From: Methanospirillum hungatei
GTDB taxonomy: Archaea; Halobacteriota; Methanomicrobia; Methanomicrobiales; Methanospirillaceae
Assembly: GCF_020216685.1 (NCBI RefSeq)
Contig: NZ_JAIWNS010000033.1
Location: 1 to 10,000, forward strand
Direction of reading: 5' to 3'
Length of the DNA: 10,000 nt
Positions 2,923 through 10,000 of this stretch are shown one piece after another (within the stretch, counting starts at the first letter, position 1; each line of letters begins with the position of its first letter). The position numbers and the translations under genes are program-made. The notes below the pieces were generated by a model. It ran no database searches. It was not told the DNA's origin and worked only from the letters and a program-made list of their open reading frames with translations.

Positions 2923-3285
2923 TCAACAATACACTATTACCTCCCTTTCCCCCTCCTCTCCCCTACCATCCTGACCCCTCTCCACAAGCCGGACAGGATT
3001 TACCGCTTCGGTCGGCATCCGGCCACCAAACCCCCGGGGTCCCTTGTACACTCCGTCGGGAGAGAGATCCCGATCATATTCTTTGAGCCAGTAAAACTGA
3101 TGGTGGTATAAATACACCCCTTTCGTGTTTGAATCCCTCCGCTCCACCAGTTCATACCCGATGAGTTTTCCAAACTGCTGAAATTTATTTCCTATAGTTT
3201 TTACCGGAAACCGGGAAGAGAGGCTGATATAAAGTGTTTTTCGGACATACGAATAATTCAGTGGATTATCAAGCCAGGTAATCAT
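2923..3285 (-). CDS. Hypothetical 120-residue protein, third gene of the replication operon
   Basis: Not recognised as a named family. Residues 15-65 (YVRKTLYISLSSRFPVKTIG to GVYLYHH) alternate helices and a beta hairpin as in a small winged helix, suggesting DNA binding, by eye only. From about residue 75 the chain becomes low-complexity, rich in Gly, Arg, Glu and Pro, ending EEGEREVIVYC; the DNA there is a long pyrimidine-rich tract on the plus strand (about 2941-2990). That tail may be a genuine disordered end or the product of a frame change. The ATG at 3285 overlaps the helicase stop as ATGA and is preceded by AAAAGGAG at eight bases, so it is translated with the helicase. Its position suggests a replication accessory or copy-control protein. 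Confidence 0.7.
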   Translation of the reverse strand: MITWLDNPLNYSYVRKTLYISLSSRFPVKTIGNKFQQFGKLIGYELVERRDSNTKGVYLYHHQFYWLKEYDRDLSPDGVYKGPRGFGGRMPTEAVNPVRLVERGQDGRGEEGEREVIVYC

Positions 3286-5366
3286 AATGATTTCTCCTTT
3301 TCATACAGATATTTCAATTCATTTAGATGGTTCTGACAGACCTGGTTATACGGCCGGTCCGGAATCTGGTACATCACAGATGTACGGGTAGAAGCAGTGC
3401 ATCCCTTACACCTGCAGTATAATTCTGTCCGGTCATCATCAGGAATAGGAATATAGGCATCGACCGGAAGATCCTGACTCATACCATGATATGCGGCAAA
3501 TTCCTGAAAGGTAGGAAACTCTGAAAGGCATGGCGATGTGGTTTCGTGAGCAGGCTGCATAAGATCATCTCCAGACTTACAGGATCTCTTTGCATCATTA
3601 CCAGTCGGTTTCATAAACGATTCAATACCGGTAATCTCTGACTGGAGGACCTGATATTCAGAGCCTCTCAGGCATTCCGGACAATCGGGGATCGCTCCAC
3701 CAGACTCATCATAATAATACCGTTGCATAATCTCCAGCCATTTCCGTCTGGTTGGAATCTCCATTGCCCGGATATTTTTTATCCCATGTGCAGTCTGAAC
3801 CCGTTTCTGTCTGCTCACCATACCAATGCCTCCAAGAGCCCGGGAGACACTTTTTGAACTACACTTTAAACCTTCGGTTATCATTTTGGAGGTAACCGCC
3901 TGAATGCGTCCTTGATAGTAATATTTACCAAATTCTGGATCGCTCATCAGGATTTCATCTCCCAATGCCAGGGAAAGAACATAATTGAACATAATACCTT
4001 CATACGATTCAGCCCGTGTCCGCTTGATCTCCTGCTGCCGGTTATTGAGGTACCGTAAAAACCGCTCCTGCCCGTCAGGAAAGAGAGTCAGAATAATAGA
4101 GAGAGGTCGTGCCATCTGTTTTAACCGTCCTTCAATCCCTTTTCCGATACAGGAGAGCATGCATTCTTCTGAAACACGGGGCCAGTGCTCAAGGACAAAC
4201 CTTGCAATAAGAGCCCTGATTTCTGCTACCTCCTCTGCATACGAGGATGGAAGTTCAGGTGGAATATCCTCCCGTGTCGTCTCATCCGGAGAGAAGGAAA
4301 GACACCGACCCTCGGTTGCTGAATCCTGGAACGGCTGCCTCATGGCGATGAGTTTGGGACCAAACGGATCAAAGAGATGAACCTGCGAAATGTCGTTTTT
4401 ATCGGTCAGGATGAAGAAATTATCCTTCTCAAATCCGAGATTGAGGTACTTGATAAGAGACGACGACTGATCACCTTTCAGATCTGATTCATCGATAAGG
4501 AGTGTTCCCATCCATTTCTCTTTAAACCGCATGATACCGGAGATTGAAGACGCTCCTGATGCCCGGATAGGATAGAAACAGAGGTCAGAGATGACTTTTA
4601 AAAACCGACTCTTTCCTTTCCCGGTATCACCAAGGAACCGGAGATAGGGCGTGGTGCTGCACTTTGAATAATACCAGGTATACAGGATGTAGTAGACAAA
4701 TAACTCATAATCATGCTCTTCAGCATCCAGGTATCTGAACAGGTGATTCCTGATTCGGGTATATAATGCTCCGGGTGGCAGAAGTTCTGCCTTTTCCAAA
4801 AGATCAGTCCGTGGAATTCCGACAATATAGGTGGTCGTGCCCCGATCCTGATGAACGGGAAGCTCCGGAGGGACCGTGACTATACCGGACGGATCGGTCT
4901 CTTCGCTCGAAAATACCACCTTGCCGTCCTGCAGGTGAGCATATGAATACCGGACATCCGGACTGATACAGGTAAGATAGAGGGCCCCGTCTTTCTCAAA
5001 AAACGGAATATGCCTGATTATCTCCTCTTCATCCGTGGAATCAAACATTTTCACAGTTTTGATATAGGAATATGCCAGATCCTTGATCTCCGAAAGAGCC
5101 TCATAATCCAGTTGCTGATACTCTTTCAGCTTCTTATTCCGCTTCTGCAGGGTTTTCATAACAGCATCGGAGGGTTTCCGGTTAGAGATCAGGTAGACGG
5201 CAATATCCCAGAATTCCTGTCTTATATCTCCTTCTTCAGAGGGATCCGTGGGAAAGAGGTATGCACCGGATTCTTTCACCTTTGAATAGGACCGGTCTTT
5301 TGCCATACCTAATGCTCTTCTCATCGTATCAGTAAACGGCGAGTGGATTGTCATCACTTCGGTCAT
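3282..5366 (-). CDS. AAA+ / SF3-like replicative helicase with winged-helix and zinc motifs
   Basis: A 694-residue P-loop ATPase likely to unwind DNA for the mobile element's replication. It has an N-terminal domain (to about 230) without recognisable motifs, then Walker A GDTGKGKS (246-253), Walker B LLIDESD (289-295), a polar sensor-like LTDKND (320-325), and Arg in AMRQPF and EGRCLSF that could act as arginine fingers. A winged-helix-like part lies around 480-535 (MITEGLKCSSKSVSRALGGI). Cys clusters follow: CPEC (562-565), and CRCKGC (651-656) with CQNH (677-680), probably binding zinc. The order resembles plasmid and virus helicases paired with Prim-Pol. The ATG at 5366 is chosen over the ATG at 5390 because GGAGGAG lies a few bases upstream and because it forms an ATGA overlap with the primase stop. 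Starting at 5390 would add eight residues. Confidence 0.88.
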   Translation of the reverse strand: MTEVMTIHSPFTDTMRRALGMAKDRSYSKVKESGAYLFPTDPSEEGDIRQEFWDIAVYLISNRKPSDAVMKTLQKRNKKLKEYQQLDYEALSEIKDLAYSYIKTVKMFDSTDEEEIIRHIPFFEKDGALYLTCISPDVRYSYAHLQDGKVVFSSEETDPSGIVTVPPELPVHQDRGTTTYIVGIPRTDLLEKAELLPPGALYTRIRNHLFRYLDAEEHDYELFVYYILYTWYYSKCSTTPYLRFLGDTGKGKSRFLKVISDLCFYPIRASGASSISGIMRFKEKWMGTLLIDESDLKGDQSSSLIKYLNLGFEKDNFFILTDKNDISQVHLFDPFGPKLIAMRQPFQDSATEGRCLSFSPDETTREDIPPELPSSYAEEVAEIRALIARFVLEHWPRVSEECMLSCIGKGIEGRLKQMARPLSIILTLFPDGQERFLRYLNNRQQEIKRTRAESYEGIMFNYVLSLALGDEILMSDPEFGKYYYQGRIQAVTSKMITEGLKCSSKSVSRALGGIGMVSRQKRVQTAHGIKNIRAMEIPTRRKWLEIMQRYYYDESGGAIPDCPECLRGSEYQVLQSEITGIESFMKPTGNDAKRSCKSGDDLMQPAHETTSPCLSEFPTFQEFAAYHGMSQDLPVDAYIPIPDDDRTELYCRCKGCTASTRTSVMYQIPDRPYNQVCQNHLNELKYLYEKEKSL

Positions 5367-6337
5367 GATCTCCTCCGTGATCTCTTCCATGCAATCCGTT
5401 CTAAAAACCTGACTTCAGGCTTTTCCCGATTCAGCACCTCCAGATGTTGTTTCATCACAGCCGAATCATATGTCCCACCACAGGGCATGATTCCTCGGCA
5501 TATGGCATCCCAACCGGCTGCATCATACCCGGCAGCACACCGGAAACAGTAGACAACGCCTTTTTTGGGGTTCATAGCCACATTTCCTCCTGGTGACGTG
5601 CTCCCATGAACCGGGTGTACTCCCCGGATCTCGCTTCCCGCTATCCTGGCATCCCGTGGGAGGGTATCCATGACGGAGAGACCATACCGCTCGGTAATTG
5701 TCTTTCCTCTGCTCTGTACAGGGGCACGATAGTCCGGTTCAGGGATCGAATCAGCGATGGCCGGGCATATAATTCTGGTGATTTCCTCAATTTCTGACCA
5801 TCTAACGGTCATTATGGACGCATCTGGATCATATATTTCATACCGGTTCCCATTCGGATGCAAAGAGAGAGGCCCGATACACTGGCCACCGGTTTTCTCT
5901 AACCCGGCCGGGAAGAAGAGTTCAACGATGGTCTGGTCCCTATCGCTTCGGATGGGGAGTTTATGCCCCCGGTAGTGGTCCGGTATATCCGGACAGGAGA
6001 TGATTGCCCGGTATTTACGCCGGTCAGGCCATGCTGAATACCGGAATGTCTCTCTGACCAGATCCTTCCCGCCTGCTCCATGAAAGGTATCGGCATCATC
6101 CACGTCAAGGGAGAGGAGATCGGAACAGGGAGCAGGATAATACCCATAATTCCCGCCATGTAGCAGATGGACGGCCAGAATGGGATCATCATGACGTCTT
6201 CCCTGTGATACCAGGTTCCAGCCCTTATACGTCGGGCCCTTCTCCCCGGCCGGGACCATGACATAGAGCAGGTCTTCACGCTGCATCTGCCAGGGTATGC
6301 AGGATCCATGGGGTACAGAGGTTGTTGTGTTACTCAT
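5363..6337 (-). CDS. Bifunctional DNA primase/polymerase (Prim-Pol, AEP superfamily) with CHC2-like zinc motif
   Basis: Likely makes primers, and perhaps extends them, for replication of an integrated plasmid or virus. The 324-residue chain starts like other Prim-Pol domains (VMVPAGEKGPTYKGWN). It then has the metal-binding D-x-D in LLSLDVDDAD (Asp78, Asp80), KYRAIISCP, and the conserved S-x-H region PLSLHPNGNRYEIY (His160). Residues 239-270 resemble a DnaG-type zinc finger: HPVHG, a spacer containing NPKKGVVY, then CFRC. His241 stands where Cys is standard, giving H-x2-H and C-x2-C ligands. The last 40 residues are basic and carry no known motif. A GGGGG-containing site precedes the ATG at 6337 by about five bases. 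The helicase follows with an ATGA overlap, and the pair probably forms one primosome. Confidence 0.88.
   Translation of the reverse strand: MSNTTTSVPHGSCIPWQMQREDLLYVMVPAGEKGPTYKGWNLVSQGRRHDDPILAVHLLHGGNYGYYPAPCSDLLSLDVDDADTFHGAGGKDLVRETFRYSAWPDRRKYRAIISCPDIPDHYRGHKLPIRSDRDQTIVELFFPAGLEKTGGQCIGPLSLHPNGNRYEIYDPDASIMTVRWSEIEEITRIICPAIADSIPEPDYRAPVQSRGKTITERYGLSVMDTLPRDARIAGSEIRGVHPVHGSTSPGGNVAMNPKKGVVYCFRCAAGYDAAGWDAICRGIMPCGGTYDSAVMKQHLEVLNREKPEVRFLERIAWKRSRRRS
5367..5377 (-). promoter_or_regulatory. Strong ribosome binding site that sets the helicase start
   Basis: GGAGGAG, read on the minus strand within the last codons of the primase gene, lies about four bases before the ATG at 5366. It is the best Shine-Dalgarno match noticed in the window. 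It supports reinitiation at the ATGA junction rather than initiation at the ATG at 5390, which has only GGATTG upstream. Confidence 0.6.
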
Positions 6338-6546
6338 TGAGTCCCCCTCTGATCCTCAAAGCATCATGGATGTTATAGATCCAGTTGAAAGATGGTTCGT
6401 CACTCGTTTTTTAATAATGCCTAGATTTTTCATTTTTTCTCAATCCTGTCGTTATTGGCGTTTTACCGTACCGACTGTCGTGAAAAAGAACACCTGTGTG
6501 CTCATTTCTCTCTATTCTCGTTATTCGTGCTTCCATATAAGTCTTA

Positions 6547-6558
6547 GTATTATAATAC
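6547..6558. repeat. Perfect 12-base palindrome GTATTATAATAC
   Basis: Self-complementary over all 12 bases and placed directly upstream of the 14-base repeats. It may be a dimeric protein site or overlap a TATA element. In such AT-rich DNA a chance origin is quite possible. Confidence 0.45.
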
Positions 6559-6567
6559 CATGTATTA

Positions 6568-6609
6568 ATTCATAGAAATATATTCATAGTAATAATTTCA
6601 TATACATAG
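6568..6609 (+). repeat. Three tandem 14-base iteron-like direct repeats
   Basis: The units are ATTCATAGAAATAT, ATTCATAGTAATAA and TTTCATATACATAG. The core TTCATA begins at 6569, 6583 and 6597, exactly 14 bases apart. The array ends three bases before the ATG of the 300-residue gene and covers its expected promoter. It could bind that gene's winged-helix product (autoregulation) or a replication initiator. Confidence 0.6.
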
Positions 6610-6612
6610 GTC

Positions 6613-7515
6613 ATGACTGAAGGGAGAACGCGAGGCCAGAAGAATAATCCGGGAGTTACGAAACGGAAAATTATTGAGATTATCTTAAAGCAGTCTGAAC
6701 CTACCCCAGAACCGGTGATTCGGGACAGTATTGCGAGCGATCTTGGGATAAAGGAACCAAAGAGTACTAAAATACAACTCGCCGCTGCAAAGGAAGAAGG
6801 GATTCTCCTGAAAGATACAAAAAGCGGCGTGAATTACTGGGATATTGATTTTACATCCGAGGCTCTTCTTGGATATGTTATTGACATCATCACCCTGATG
6901 CCGGAGGAGGATCGGGTCCCGTTCTTCTCTTCTTTATATGTTCAGGACCTGGTACTGAAAATGGCCGGTTTTATGGCACGGACAAACCGCCAGGGGGAAC
7001 AATCCGGGTATAGAGGCACTCAAATCTCTGAATACTGGGGGTTTTTACAGAGTGAGCCGATTCATGAGACTCTGGATGAAGAACTTCCTCAGGACGTTTG
7101 GAAAGCCGTTCAATTTTACCGATGGGTTGTAACCCATTCTCCTTCTTTCTTCCTTTATCAGTTTCAGGATGCGGCTCGTATCAGCCCATACCTTGAATTG
7201 ATCCTGGGATCACAGATGCTCAAAACCGAATGGAAGGATTATGATTTTCTTTATTTTGTCGGGACCATGGGGCTTATTATTGATTACAGCCGGTCAGATG
7301 AGAGATACCATGATGAGATTGCTGCATTCCTGGCCAAGAATTCTATCGACATCTTCAATCATACATCCTTAAAATATCCGGACCGGTTATTCTTGAATAT
7401 GATACGGGCACATGAGATGATGCAGGAGAGGCACCCGGTCTGTTCGGGTGAGACCATAACACAGAAGTCATTTCGTCTGGATCCTCAAATATTTCGTAAA
7501 TTTCAGGGTTTTTAG
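6613..7515 (+). CDS. Hypothetical 300-residue protein with likely N-terminal winged helix
   Basis: No named family is recognised. Residues about 15-80 (KRKIIEIILKQSEPTPEPVI, then SDLGIKEPKSTKIQLAAAKE and EGILLKD) look like a winged helix-turn-helix with a final hairpin (VNYWDIDF). The remaining about 220 residues are rich in aromatic and helical segments without a known motif; there is no transmembrane stretch and no Cys cluster. The ATG at 6613 has no good Shine-Dalgarno, fitting leaderless translation. The gene is divergent from the primase operon, and three 14-base repeats sit immediately before it. This suggests an element-encoded repressor or replication initiator, an inference from position and the DNA-binding domain. 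Stop is TAG, with T-rich sequence about 70 bases downstream. Confidence 0.78.
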   Translation: MTEGRTRGQKNNPGVTKRKIIEIILKQSEPTPEPVIRDSIASDLGIKEPKSTKIQLAAAKEEGILLKDTKSGVNYWDIDFTSEALLGYVIDIITLMPEEDRVPFFSSLYVQDLVLKMAGFMARTNRQGEQSGYRGTQISEYWGFLQSEPIHETLDEELPQDVWKAVQFYRWVVTHSPSFFLYQFQDAARISPYLELILGSQMLKTEWKDYDFLYFVGTMGLIIDYSRSDERYHDEIAAFLAKNSIDIFNHTSLKYPDRLFLNMIRAHEMMQERHPVCSGETITQKSFRLDPQIFRKFQGF

Positions 7516-7578: not shown

Positions 7579-7590
7579 ATTTTTATTATT
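7579..7590 (+). terminator. T-rich terminator candidate after the 300-residue gene
   Basis: ATTTTTATTATT lies about 65 bases after the stop at 7515 and before the next remnant. No hairpin was found. Archaeal termination needs only T-richness, so this is a weak candidate. Confidence 0.3.
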
Positions 7591-7609
7591 GACGTGTATG
7601 TATTCTCAT

Positions 7610-7780
7610 ATGGATGAAAAACCTCTCACTATTGGCGAAGATCTCATAAGCAAGATTTAAGAAGCCGGTACCTCGCATATATTTGGTGTTCCGGGAGATG
7701 TAAAAAAGTATTCGTTGATAATTGAGGATGTACCAGATGCAGATATTACGAAAGTACCTTATTCTGCGTCAAGAGAATGA
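7610..7780 (+). pseudogene. Remnant of a thiamine-diphosphate enzyme (indolepyruvate/pyruvate decarboxylase-like N-terminus)
   Basis: The translation MDEKPLTIGEDLISKI, TAA (7658-7660), then EAGTSHIFGVPGDVKKYS matches the first 45 or so residues of the decarboxylase/acetolactate synthase family. There a helix of the type YLIxRLxEAG precedes the strongly conserved HIFGVPGD strand and turn of the Pyr domain. The TAA falls inside that helix. The frame ends with TGA at 7778-7780 after SASRE, about where the family's catalytic Glu region begins. Nothing after it resembles the other 500 residues. This is a decayed 5' fragment and not expected to be functional. The parent enzyme's substrate cannot be told. 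Confidence 0.7.
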
Positions 7781-8464: not shown

Positions 8465-8953
8465 TTATATCAAGCCCGAATCCGCGGATTTTTGGACACA
8501 TGCCACGTATTCAGCAACCAGATAATAATTATTCAGGTCATCTTCGTCAAGACCACGAAATACGAATAGCTCATCCCAGAGCTGACTGCTCCCCTCGACC
8601 ATGAAATATCCGGATTCAAGTTCAAAACCAACAATGATATCACATCCCTTGAATATCTCATCCTGATTTTCATAGAGCCTTTTTTCGGTTCCGGTATTTT
8701 TTATCTGGAAGACCTGTAGCAGGGGGATTTTGTCTGAAGGAATCTTGTGAGCGTAATACTCGTTCAAAGTTACATTATCATAGACGATCCGGAGTAGGTT
8801 TTGTTCGGTTCGTTCTATAACCGGATAGTTCTCCTTCAGGTATACAATGACGTCTTGTATGGGTTTGTTGTTGGGTTTGAGTTTAGGCCTGTAGGTGTCA
8901 TAGGTTTCCCTCCAGTTTCGAACCATTTCCGGGGTTGGTTCCTGCATGAGCAT
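8465..8953 (-). CDS. Hypothetical 162-residue protein
   Basis: Family not recognised. The chain looks like an intact soluble domain. A basic start (MLMQEPTPEMVRNWRETYDT) is followed by a helix VIVYLKENYPVIERTEQNLL, then alternating strands in LLQVFQIKN, CDIIVGFELESGYFMVEG and WDELFVFRG, and a final helix LVAEYVACVQKS. There is no signal peptide, membrane segment or metal motif. A second ATG at 8947 removes only two residues and cannot be excluded. No ribosome binding site is seen. AGAATATAGG on the minus strand, about 45 bases upstream, is a possible TATA element. It stands alone between decayed sequence and another leftward gene, and its size and acidic strands would suit a small accessory protein, but no function can be assigned. 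Confidence 0.7.
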   Translation of the reverse strand: MLMQEPTPEMVRNWRETYDTYRPKLKPNNKPIQDVIVYLKENYPVIERTEQNLLRIVYDNVTLNEYYAHKIPSDKIPLLQVFQIKNTGTEKRLYENQDEIFKGCDIIVGFELESGYFMVEGSSQLWDELFVFRGLDEDDLNNYYLVAEYVACVQKSADSGLI

Positions 8954-9176: not shown

Positions 9177-10000
9177 TTATTTTTCTCCTCTTTCTTCTTT
9201 CAATTTATTGATCTTTTCTTTCAGTATAAACTCTAATTTCGCCCTGATTTTTGCATTCTGTTCATATTCATAGGTAACTAAATCCTCGTCCTTTCTTCGT
9301 ACCTGTTCATACACATCTGTATATGATTTCTTTAGATATTGCTGAATGTCGACACCTTTCTCTCTTGGAATTAAATCCTGTAATGTTTTAAGTTGATATC
9401 GCTCAGTCGCTGTGAATTTTTTCTCCATCCGATTCCATACGGTATCACATGCTTCCTCATAAGGCACTCCTTGCAGCTCTAATTTTTTCACTTCTTCCAA
9501 GAATTCCTTACCTTTTGTACTGATAAGAGTATTCGTACCCATTACATCGTCACGAATTGCTTTTGCTACTTTTTCGGGGAAATCGAGGGGACTGCTTGGA
9601 ATCCTTAATATATTTGTGCCAATCTCTTTTATGGTATCAATAAGAAGTTCAGATAATTTTTCATCGTCATATGTGCCTATTGAATCGATATCAATATCCG
9701 GATATTCCGTTTCATAAATGTCAATATGCCTATTTATCTGATCCTGAATTTGTCCAGCCAATTCTGGATCATCCTTGAGCACAGATATTATATCTTCACT
9801 TGATGCATCAATATTCCATTCCTGCTTGATAAAGGAAGCCTGATTATCTAAATCAGGTGTTTCTTTTTGCTTTTTTTCTCCGATCTCGTCAATTTTTTCT
9901 TTATCTGAAGAGGTCTTTTCTTCCGAAGATTCCTCTGATGTATCTTTTGTTATCACACCAGTCAGAGCTCCGGCAAGGTCCAGAGAAGAACTACTGATTA
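9177..10000 (-). CDS. Hypothetical acidic, helix-rich protein, N-terminus outside the window
   Basis: Not recognised. A GTG at 9956 would give 259 residues, but the frame stays open to the right edge (upstream residues SLDLAGALTGVITK), so the true start is probably outside. From that GTG, the first 40 residues are a charged low-complexity stretch (Ser, Glu, Lys), likely disordered. An acidic part follows (DIYETEYPDIDIDSIG), then a middle domain with DFPEKVAKAIRDD and EACDTVWNRMEKKFTATERY. A long charged amphipathic C-terminal helix ends KEKINKLKEERGEK, probably a coiled coil. There is no membrane segment in the visible part. The stop is TAA at 9177-9179. Orientation matches the next gene (162 residues) 223 bases away, but the gap argues against tight coupling. 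The function is unknown. Confidence 0.75.
   Translation of the reverse strand, partial: ISSSSLDLAGALTGVITKDTSEESSEEKTSSDKEKIDEIGEKKQKETPDLDNQASFIKQEWNIDASSEDIISVLKDDPELAGQIQDQINRHIDIYETEYPDIDIDSIGTYDDEKLSELLIDTIKEIGTNILRIPSSPLDFPEKVAKAIRDDVMGTNTLISTKGKEFLEEVKKLELQGVPYEEACDTVWNRMEKKFTATERYQLKTLQDLIPREKGVDIQQYLKKSYTDVYEQVRRKDEDLVTYEYEQNAKIRAKLEFILKEKINKLKEERGEK

Follow-up and report, generated by a model that had tools for sequence, protein, structure and literature searches.

Short tandem repeats as regulator sites are known from the archaeal virus SSV1, whose F55 protein, as set out in passages of one report, acts at repeats located at virus promoters, including that of the regulator's own gene, and keeps early genes silent, its sites overlapping the transcription start site and the transcription factor B recognition element (PMC5569661). 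A comparable arrangement occurs in Methanospirillum hungatei, on contig NZ_JAIWNS010000033.1 of assembly GCF_020216685.1, the whole 10-kb length of which was analyzed and is here called the window (the genome comprises 3.0 Mb in 300 contigs, and the relatives of the window proteins are from Methanospirillum). In this window, a 275-bp non-coding gap separates the gene for a Prim-Pol-type primase (minus strand), the first of a divergent replication operon, from the gene for a 300-residue protein (plus strand), and within the gap lies an array of three TTCATA direct repeats (6569-6602, plus strand). We judge it somewhat better than an even bet that the array is an autoregulatory operator of the 300-residue protein, with probable control of the operon encoding the primase, a helicase, and a DUF6009 protein. 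The systems also differ, as F55, from a spindle virus of crenarchaea, is a ribbon-helix-helix protein of 6.3 kDa, whereas the candidate regulator here is a predicted winged-helix protein encoded in a euryarchaeal chromosome.

Other described systems share the replication parts of this module. In plasmid RSF1010, separate proteins for repeat binding, helicase, and primase functions (RepC, RepA, and RepB') are associated with direct repeats, according to part of one account (PMC4234260); the present locus has just three 14-bp units and is chromosomal, and the likeness is by description. In the pRN1-type plasmids, as the same partial account has it, Prim-Pol, helicase, and winged-helix parts reside in one protein, the likely origin is a downstream stem-loop, and the minimal replicon includes a transcriptional repressor (PMC4234260), whereas here the three parts are encoded by separate genes. 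Likewise, the small integrated Prim-Pol elements of dark-matter islands (arCOG07809, typified by Mpal_2033 of the related methanogen Methanosphaerula palustris) are described, in the sections of their report that deal with them, as combining primase, helicase, helix-turn-helix, and zinc finger domains (PMC4158269); in Mpal_2033 all four are in one protein, and its likeness to the window proteins is by description. A different kind of parallel is offered by grounded, or cryptic, bacterial prophages, virus remnants stuck in the chromosome that are proposed, in the relevant part of one paper, to be kept for immunity (PMC6379469). The module in the window is cut down to about four genes and an operator, and it belongs to an archaeon.

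The decisive evidence that the array is real is its conservation. All three TTCATA units (6569-6574, 6583-6588, and 6597-6602), at an exact 14-bp period, are kept in four loci, namely the window, L041 (genome G003), L043 (G001), and L045 (G009), where G, L, and P numbers denote the genomes compared, the loci extracted from them, and homologous proteins, respectively. Across these genomes, 31 of the 34 array positions are identical, against a baseline of 132 of 384 four-fold codon sites drawn from the helicase, Prim-Pol, and 300-residue genes and restricted to codons with agreeing first two bases. In the interval 6547-6612, 55 of 66 columns are invariant, whereas elsewhere in the gap the figure is 83 of 230 (Fisher p 7e-12), and positions 6497-6546 are intermediate (60-70% per 20-column window). 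An initial annotation of this DNA had described the 14-base array together with a 12-base palindrome in AT-rich surroundings, and both were confirmed: the palindrome, GTATTATAATAC, which has no strand and may be a second regulator site or a TATA-like element, occupies 6547-6558, and the G+C content falls to 21% in the final 80 bp upstream of the 300-residue gene's ATG. The repeats also recur, as that annotation had proposed to check, beside four of the five full-length homologues of the 300-residue gene, so that sites and candidate regulator are conserved together; the fifth homologue is in L044, a second copy in G001. The accompanying gene set holds up as well, with the 300-residue gene adjoining the Prim-Pol and helicase genes at all five loci, although these are broken in one.

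Chance repetition in AT-rich DNA is scarcely credible and is already refuted by the near-invariance in four genomes. In 5000 dinucleotide shuffles, either of the whole 275-bp gap or of its AT-rich last 72 bp, any 6-mer occurring three times at equal spacing arose in 0.16% or 0.52% of cases, respectively. The palindrome is unremarkable on its own because the same shuffles yield one in 8.3% or 13.8% of cases, and to that extent it fits a chance origin; triple 6-mer and palindrome together arose in none of the gap shuffles and in 0.08% of those of the last 72 bp. Also on the side of chance is a cruder test, for the longest exact repeat at 11-16 bp spacing within 150 bp, which gives P 0.024 for the window (P 0.024-0.039 over the four array-bearing loci and P 0.997 for L044). 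The possibility of an RNA element was set aside, as no Rfam match reached the gathering threshold.

The distribution of the array bears on whether it could instead be bound by a regulator of the host, or be a promoter of an unusual kind, the 300-residue protein playing no part, a reading that we consider quite improbable. Core promoters in archaea are AT-rich. The palindrome has a TATA-like core and, besides its presence at the module in four of four array-bearing genomes, occurs at 3 further places among 12 genomes of the genus (1 in G003 and 2 in G010), as might suit such a regulator. Likewise, when up to three mismatches to a 21-mer of the array are allowed in these 12 genomes, a second register appears at each locus together with 3 other places. 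The exact 21-mer, however, is confined to the four loci, and a reversed 21-mer gives 3 matches at three mismatches. One identical 21-mer with three mismatches to the array occurs both at G000:C294:2321-2341 and at G001:C1:1751563-1751583. On the scale of the order, the exact three-repeat pattern is present in 6 of 232 genomes, of which four represent this locus, so that just two others (G130 and G155) carry it where more sites would usually be expected of a host regulator; the reversed pattern occurs in 1 of the 232. Viral sequences in IMG/VR include 42 stretches with TTCATA three times at 14-bp spacing. At E 1e-3, these encode no relative of ten window proteins, and the same holds for L113 and L114, from the two other genomes of the order; of the 90 array matches counted, not one begins TTCATAGnAATA. 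They are taken as probable background.

The position of the array would suit transcriptional control. It begins and ends 44 and 11 bp upstream of the ATG of the 300-residue gene and lies 232 bp from the Prim-Pol start, rather than midway between the operons. A weakly supported candidate TATA box for the 300-residue gene, AATATATT (6577-6584, plus strand), would lie at -36 to -29 and overlaps the start of repeat 2. The repeats, spanning -44 to -11, flank it, and the array probably falls inside the core promoter. In 183 upstream regions, which are not independent of one another, TATATA is most frequent between -40 and -31 relative to the ATG, with 9 matches compared with 0-4 in other bins. If this placement is right, repeats 1 and 2 would bracket the box, repeat 3 would lie close to the start site, and occupation of the repeats by a protein would block transcription, the way in which F55 works in SSV1 (PMC5569661). 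For the Prim-Pol/helicase operon, the candidate TATA box CTTATATG (6534-6541, minus strand) would imply a leader of ~170 nt; the plus-strand sequence CATATAAG is present in 3 of 4 aligned loci and differs by one base in the fourth.

The product of the adjacent gene (6613-7515, plus strand) is a plausible partner for such sites. It shares 79% identity with Mhun_1660 of M. hungatei JF-1 and 69% with a protein of M. stamsii, and is predicted to consist of a winged helix (residues 13-78) and a helical C-terminal part. An AlphaFold model built from 18 sequences (mean predicted local distance score, pLDDT, 69.8), preferred over one from 15 sequences (pLDDT 50.6), contains one confident winged helix, with parts of the remainder at low confidence. 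By this model the gene beside the array encodes a DNA-binding protein, as an autoregulated operator would have. A Foldseek search with the model gave no match at E 0.001 in PDB or BFVD. Similarity to the JF-1 gene shifts abruptly at window positions 6951-7515 (residues ~110-300), with a synonymous divergence (dS) of 0.35 before and 1.0 after, which looks like a C-terminal domain swap in the JF-1 protein. The C-terminal part also occurs without the winged helix (L047 8925-9405; protein P0015), at the end of a contig of G006 and in a cluster of 114 proteins.

In the mechanism we propose, the 300-residue winged-helix protein would bind the three repeats, cover the TATA box and start site, and so limit its own synthesis; were it to spread or loop out toward the divergent promoter and the palindrome, it would also set expression of the replication operon. 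The same layout invites another explanation, an iteron-type origin with the protein as its initiator: it would attach to the repeats, melt the AT-rich DNA, and load the helicase and Prim-Pol, in the manner of RepC, RepA, and RepB' of RSF1010, and self-repression would be a by-product. Such an origin would have several repeats of one orientation and constant spacing, set in AT-rich DNA with a candidate initiator gene alongside, as this locus does, and the gap is the sole long non-coding stretch within the module. Invariant Prim-Pol residues and genes under selection (below) also count in its favor, and two BFVD fold matches of the 300-residue protein are named replisome organizer, at probabilities of only 0.23 and 0.20. 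Iteron repeat units, however, are near 17-22 bp, compared with three units at a 14-bp period here. Iteron initiators carry the Rep double winged-helix fold, of which the model here shows one confident winged helix, other parts being of low confidence. No replication initiator appeared among the best 50 PDB matches listed in each of two fold searches, a weak test in that such lists cannot exclude one. Direct repeats in AT-rich DNA next to separate winged-helix, helicase, and primase genes do recall RSF1010, but in the Prim-Pol-bearing pRN1 family the essential element, in the portion of the account that treats it, is the downstream stem-loop rather than iterons (PMC4234260). A plasmid origin is ranked second because the four array-bearing copies sit among common chromosomal genes and the repeats occupy the expected place of a promoter, 11-44 bp ahead of a start codon; we regard an iteron-type origin as possible but rather doubtful. 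The autoregulatory operator is favored, and both functions could hold at once. The suggestion that the protein is an initiator or repressor is supported by its predicted winged helix and by an array placed where a self-operator would be. A plasmid setting is not supported: the four loci have chromosomal neighbors, a search with one integrase as query gave no strong match in their vicinity, and similar replication genes are found in elements that carry an integrase. A chromosomal origin was also considered and rejected, as the two above-cut-off TIGR02928 (orc1/cdc6) genes are far from the module, at 0.52 and 2.74 Mb in G003 (module at 1.88 Mb) and at 0.86 and 2.09 Mb in G001 (module at 3.31 Mb).

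The operon presumably subject to this control comprises three genes on the minus strand. Its Prim-Pol-type primase, with a DnaG-like zinc ribbon (5363-6337), has only weak direct Pfam matches (Prim-Pol, E 0.12; zinc ribbon, 0.07), but relatives in L049 and L052 exceed the PF09250 cut-off (2e-9 and 7.5e-12), and D78, D80, and H160, which we take to be the catalytic DxD and histidine residues, are invariant in all 8 aligned sequences. Family match and motif together argue for assignment as a PF09250 primase. The putative AAA+/SF3-like helicase (3282-5390) has Walker A (GDTGKGKS) and Walker B (LLIDESD) motifs identified by eye and gave no significant family or PDB match. The last gene (2923-3285) encodes a DUF6009 protein (PF19472, 47.1 bits compared with a cut-off of 28.6). 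A defense system was considered, and no PADLOC match at E<=0.1 was found for these three proteins or the 300-residue protein. Open-licence full text yielded no paper on Mhun_1660 or DUF6009 and, among the titles listed, none describing the module. Pairwise ratios of nonsynonymous to synonymous substitution (dN/dS) over six genome pairs are 0.11-0.20 for the helicase, 0.17-0.27 for Prim-Pol, 0.17-0.20 for the 300-residue gene, and 0.07-0.12 for the DUF6009 gene, and all four are under purifying selection.

Relatives of the replication genes are found in L046 and L052 (both G008), L050 and L051 (both G020), and L049 (G003). Both Prim-Pol and helicase are present in L046 and L049; L050 showed the helicase only, and in L051 and L052 Prim-Pol is accompanied by a merely partly recognizable helicase. 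In all but L049, near which no integrase was seen, the order is an integrase, a divergent gene of 258-286 codons, and then Prim-Pol and/or helicase. Pfam matches of the divergent genes, one above the cut-off (FaeA, L052), three below (L046, L049, and L050), and none in L051, are thin evidence that these are helix-turn-helix proteins. Comparison of the 300-residue protein with these regulators by hhalign suggests weak remote similarity to those of L046 (91% probability) and L052 (69%), and the reverse search from the L046 regulator recovers the 300-residue loci with E-values from 1e-5 to 5e-4. Upstream of their regulator genes, L046 (P 0.001) and L051 (P 0.0015) have more direct repetition at 11-16 bp spacing than chance would give; in L051, at 6374-6428 ahead of that gene, two direct-repeat pairs occur in an inverted arrangement.

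These elements differ from the window module in having an integrase (L046, L050, L051, and L052) and, in L046, a confirmed large terminase (phrog_7579, 1.8e-49; terminase-like genes in the others were read by eye), whereas the module has neither confirmed. Pfam searches of 10 of the 32 listed open reading frames of the window gave no integrase, terminase, or virion-gene match above cut-off, and PHROGs searches of six gave nothing significant for these classes. A 273-residue frame at the end of the window (9177-9998), whose counterpart in G001 is a 510-residue frame, matches Terminase_6C below threshold (16.3 bits; the cut-off is 22.6) and is probably not a terminase. By these comparisons the module does not have the makings of a complete tailed-virus provirus. 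The best reading is of a stripped, or grounded, replication module: a replication and immunity unit of a tailed-virus-like provirus that would have lost its integration and virion genes and that selection would have preserved in the chromosomes of Methanospirillum, perhaps to give immunity to viruses related to it, a role suggested by analogy with the grounded prophages.

The four array-bearing loci have common neighbors, in overlapping subsets: an acetyltransferase gene upstream of the module in G001, M. stamsii, and G010, with scraps in the window and JF-1; a tetR gene in the window and JF-1; a thiamine diphosphate (ThDP)-dependent enzyme in G001 and G010, with a scrap in the window; a metallo-hydrolase in G001, M. 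stamsii, and G010; and additional genes, downstream, common to JF-1 and G001. The simplest reading is one fixed chromosomal site with much local rearrangement. In G010 both flanks are present, along with an MNT scrap and, in a displaced position, a scrap from the C-terminal end of the 300-residue gene, so that loss of the module is likelier than a never-occupied site. Among smaller features of the neighborhood, the ThDP enzyme scrap (7580-7699, named by eye) is complete beside the module in G001, and a 162-residue protein of no known family (8465-8953) also occurs near the module in G001 and M. stamsii and, in G010, as one full and one fragmentary copy. The window has a nucleotidyltransferase/HEPN pair (2126-2876; PF01909, PF05168), the first member of which also matches PADLOC PDC-S09 (1e-19); in G001 and M. 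stamsii the module is accompanied by different toxin-antitoxin-like pairs. In L041, an open frame at 10196-10807 is a chimera of an acetyltransferase start and a HEPN end.

Several observations weigh against the autoregulatory operator and the provirus history proposed for it. The promoter position is only plausible, because TATATA peaks there but AATATA, the hexamer actually present in AATATATT, has no clear peak (3 matches at -40 to -31, 4 at -50 to -41, and 0-3 elsewhere). No array stands at the Prim-Pol start, which leaves operon control conjectural; a period of 14 bp does not correspond to complete turns of the helix; and binding of the repeats by the 300-residue protein is itself a prediction. 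The counter-evidence named in advance by the initial annotation, namely absence of the repeats beside homologues or homologues apart from replication genes, was found in part: the array accompanies four homologues, but in L044 an intact 300-residue frame (65% identical to the window protein and 91% to P0009) is without TTCATA, and its replication genes are broken (L044 5529-9570: Prim-Pol lacking its middle, helicase split), reflecting either decay or a regulator with another site. Among the related elements, repeats upstream of the regulator do not exceed chance in L052, L050, and L049 (the three P values, in ascending order, are 0.32, 0.57, and 0.98), and hhalign gave no relation of the 300-residue protein to the regulators of L049, L050, and L051. 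The likeness to the L046 regulator could reflect merely a shared winged helix, because that query matches frames of ~125-131 residues in five genomes at similar E-values. Finally, no virus to be immune to is seen, because IMG/VR yielded no relative of the 300-residue protein, the helicase, or the alignments of the L046 regulator and helicase, in scans resting on few peptide patterns.

A bolder extension seems unlikely, namely that the winged-helix regulator, its three-repeat operator, and an intact Prim-Pol/helicase pair form a domesticated archaeal provirus unit that has been in the chromosome since before the four species split and has no integration or virion gene. In that reading the unit would protect against related viruses by immunity and as a replication decoy, and its sensing domain, at the C terminus, would be exchangeable, as the apparent swap in the JF-1 protein might suggest. 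To our knowledge, the silencing of methanogen proviruses has been little studied. At this locus a conserved replication operon, a candidate regulator, and the operator on which that regulator probably acts are together in one small unit, and as M. hungatei JF-1 and M. stamsii carry the module too, the proposed switch would be directly testable. It also raises the question of why selection keeps a virus-type primase and helicase in these chromosomes without an adjacent gene for cell exit.
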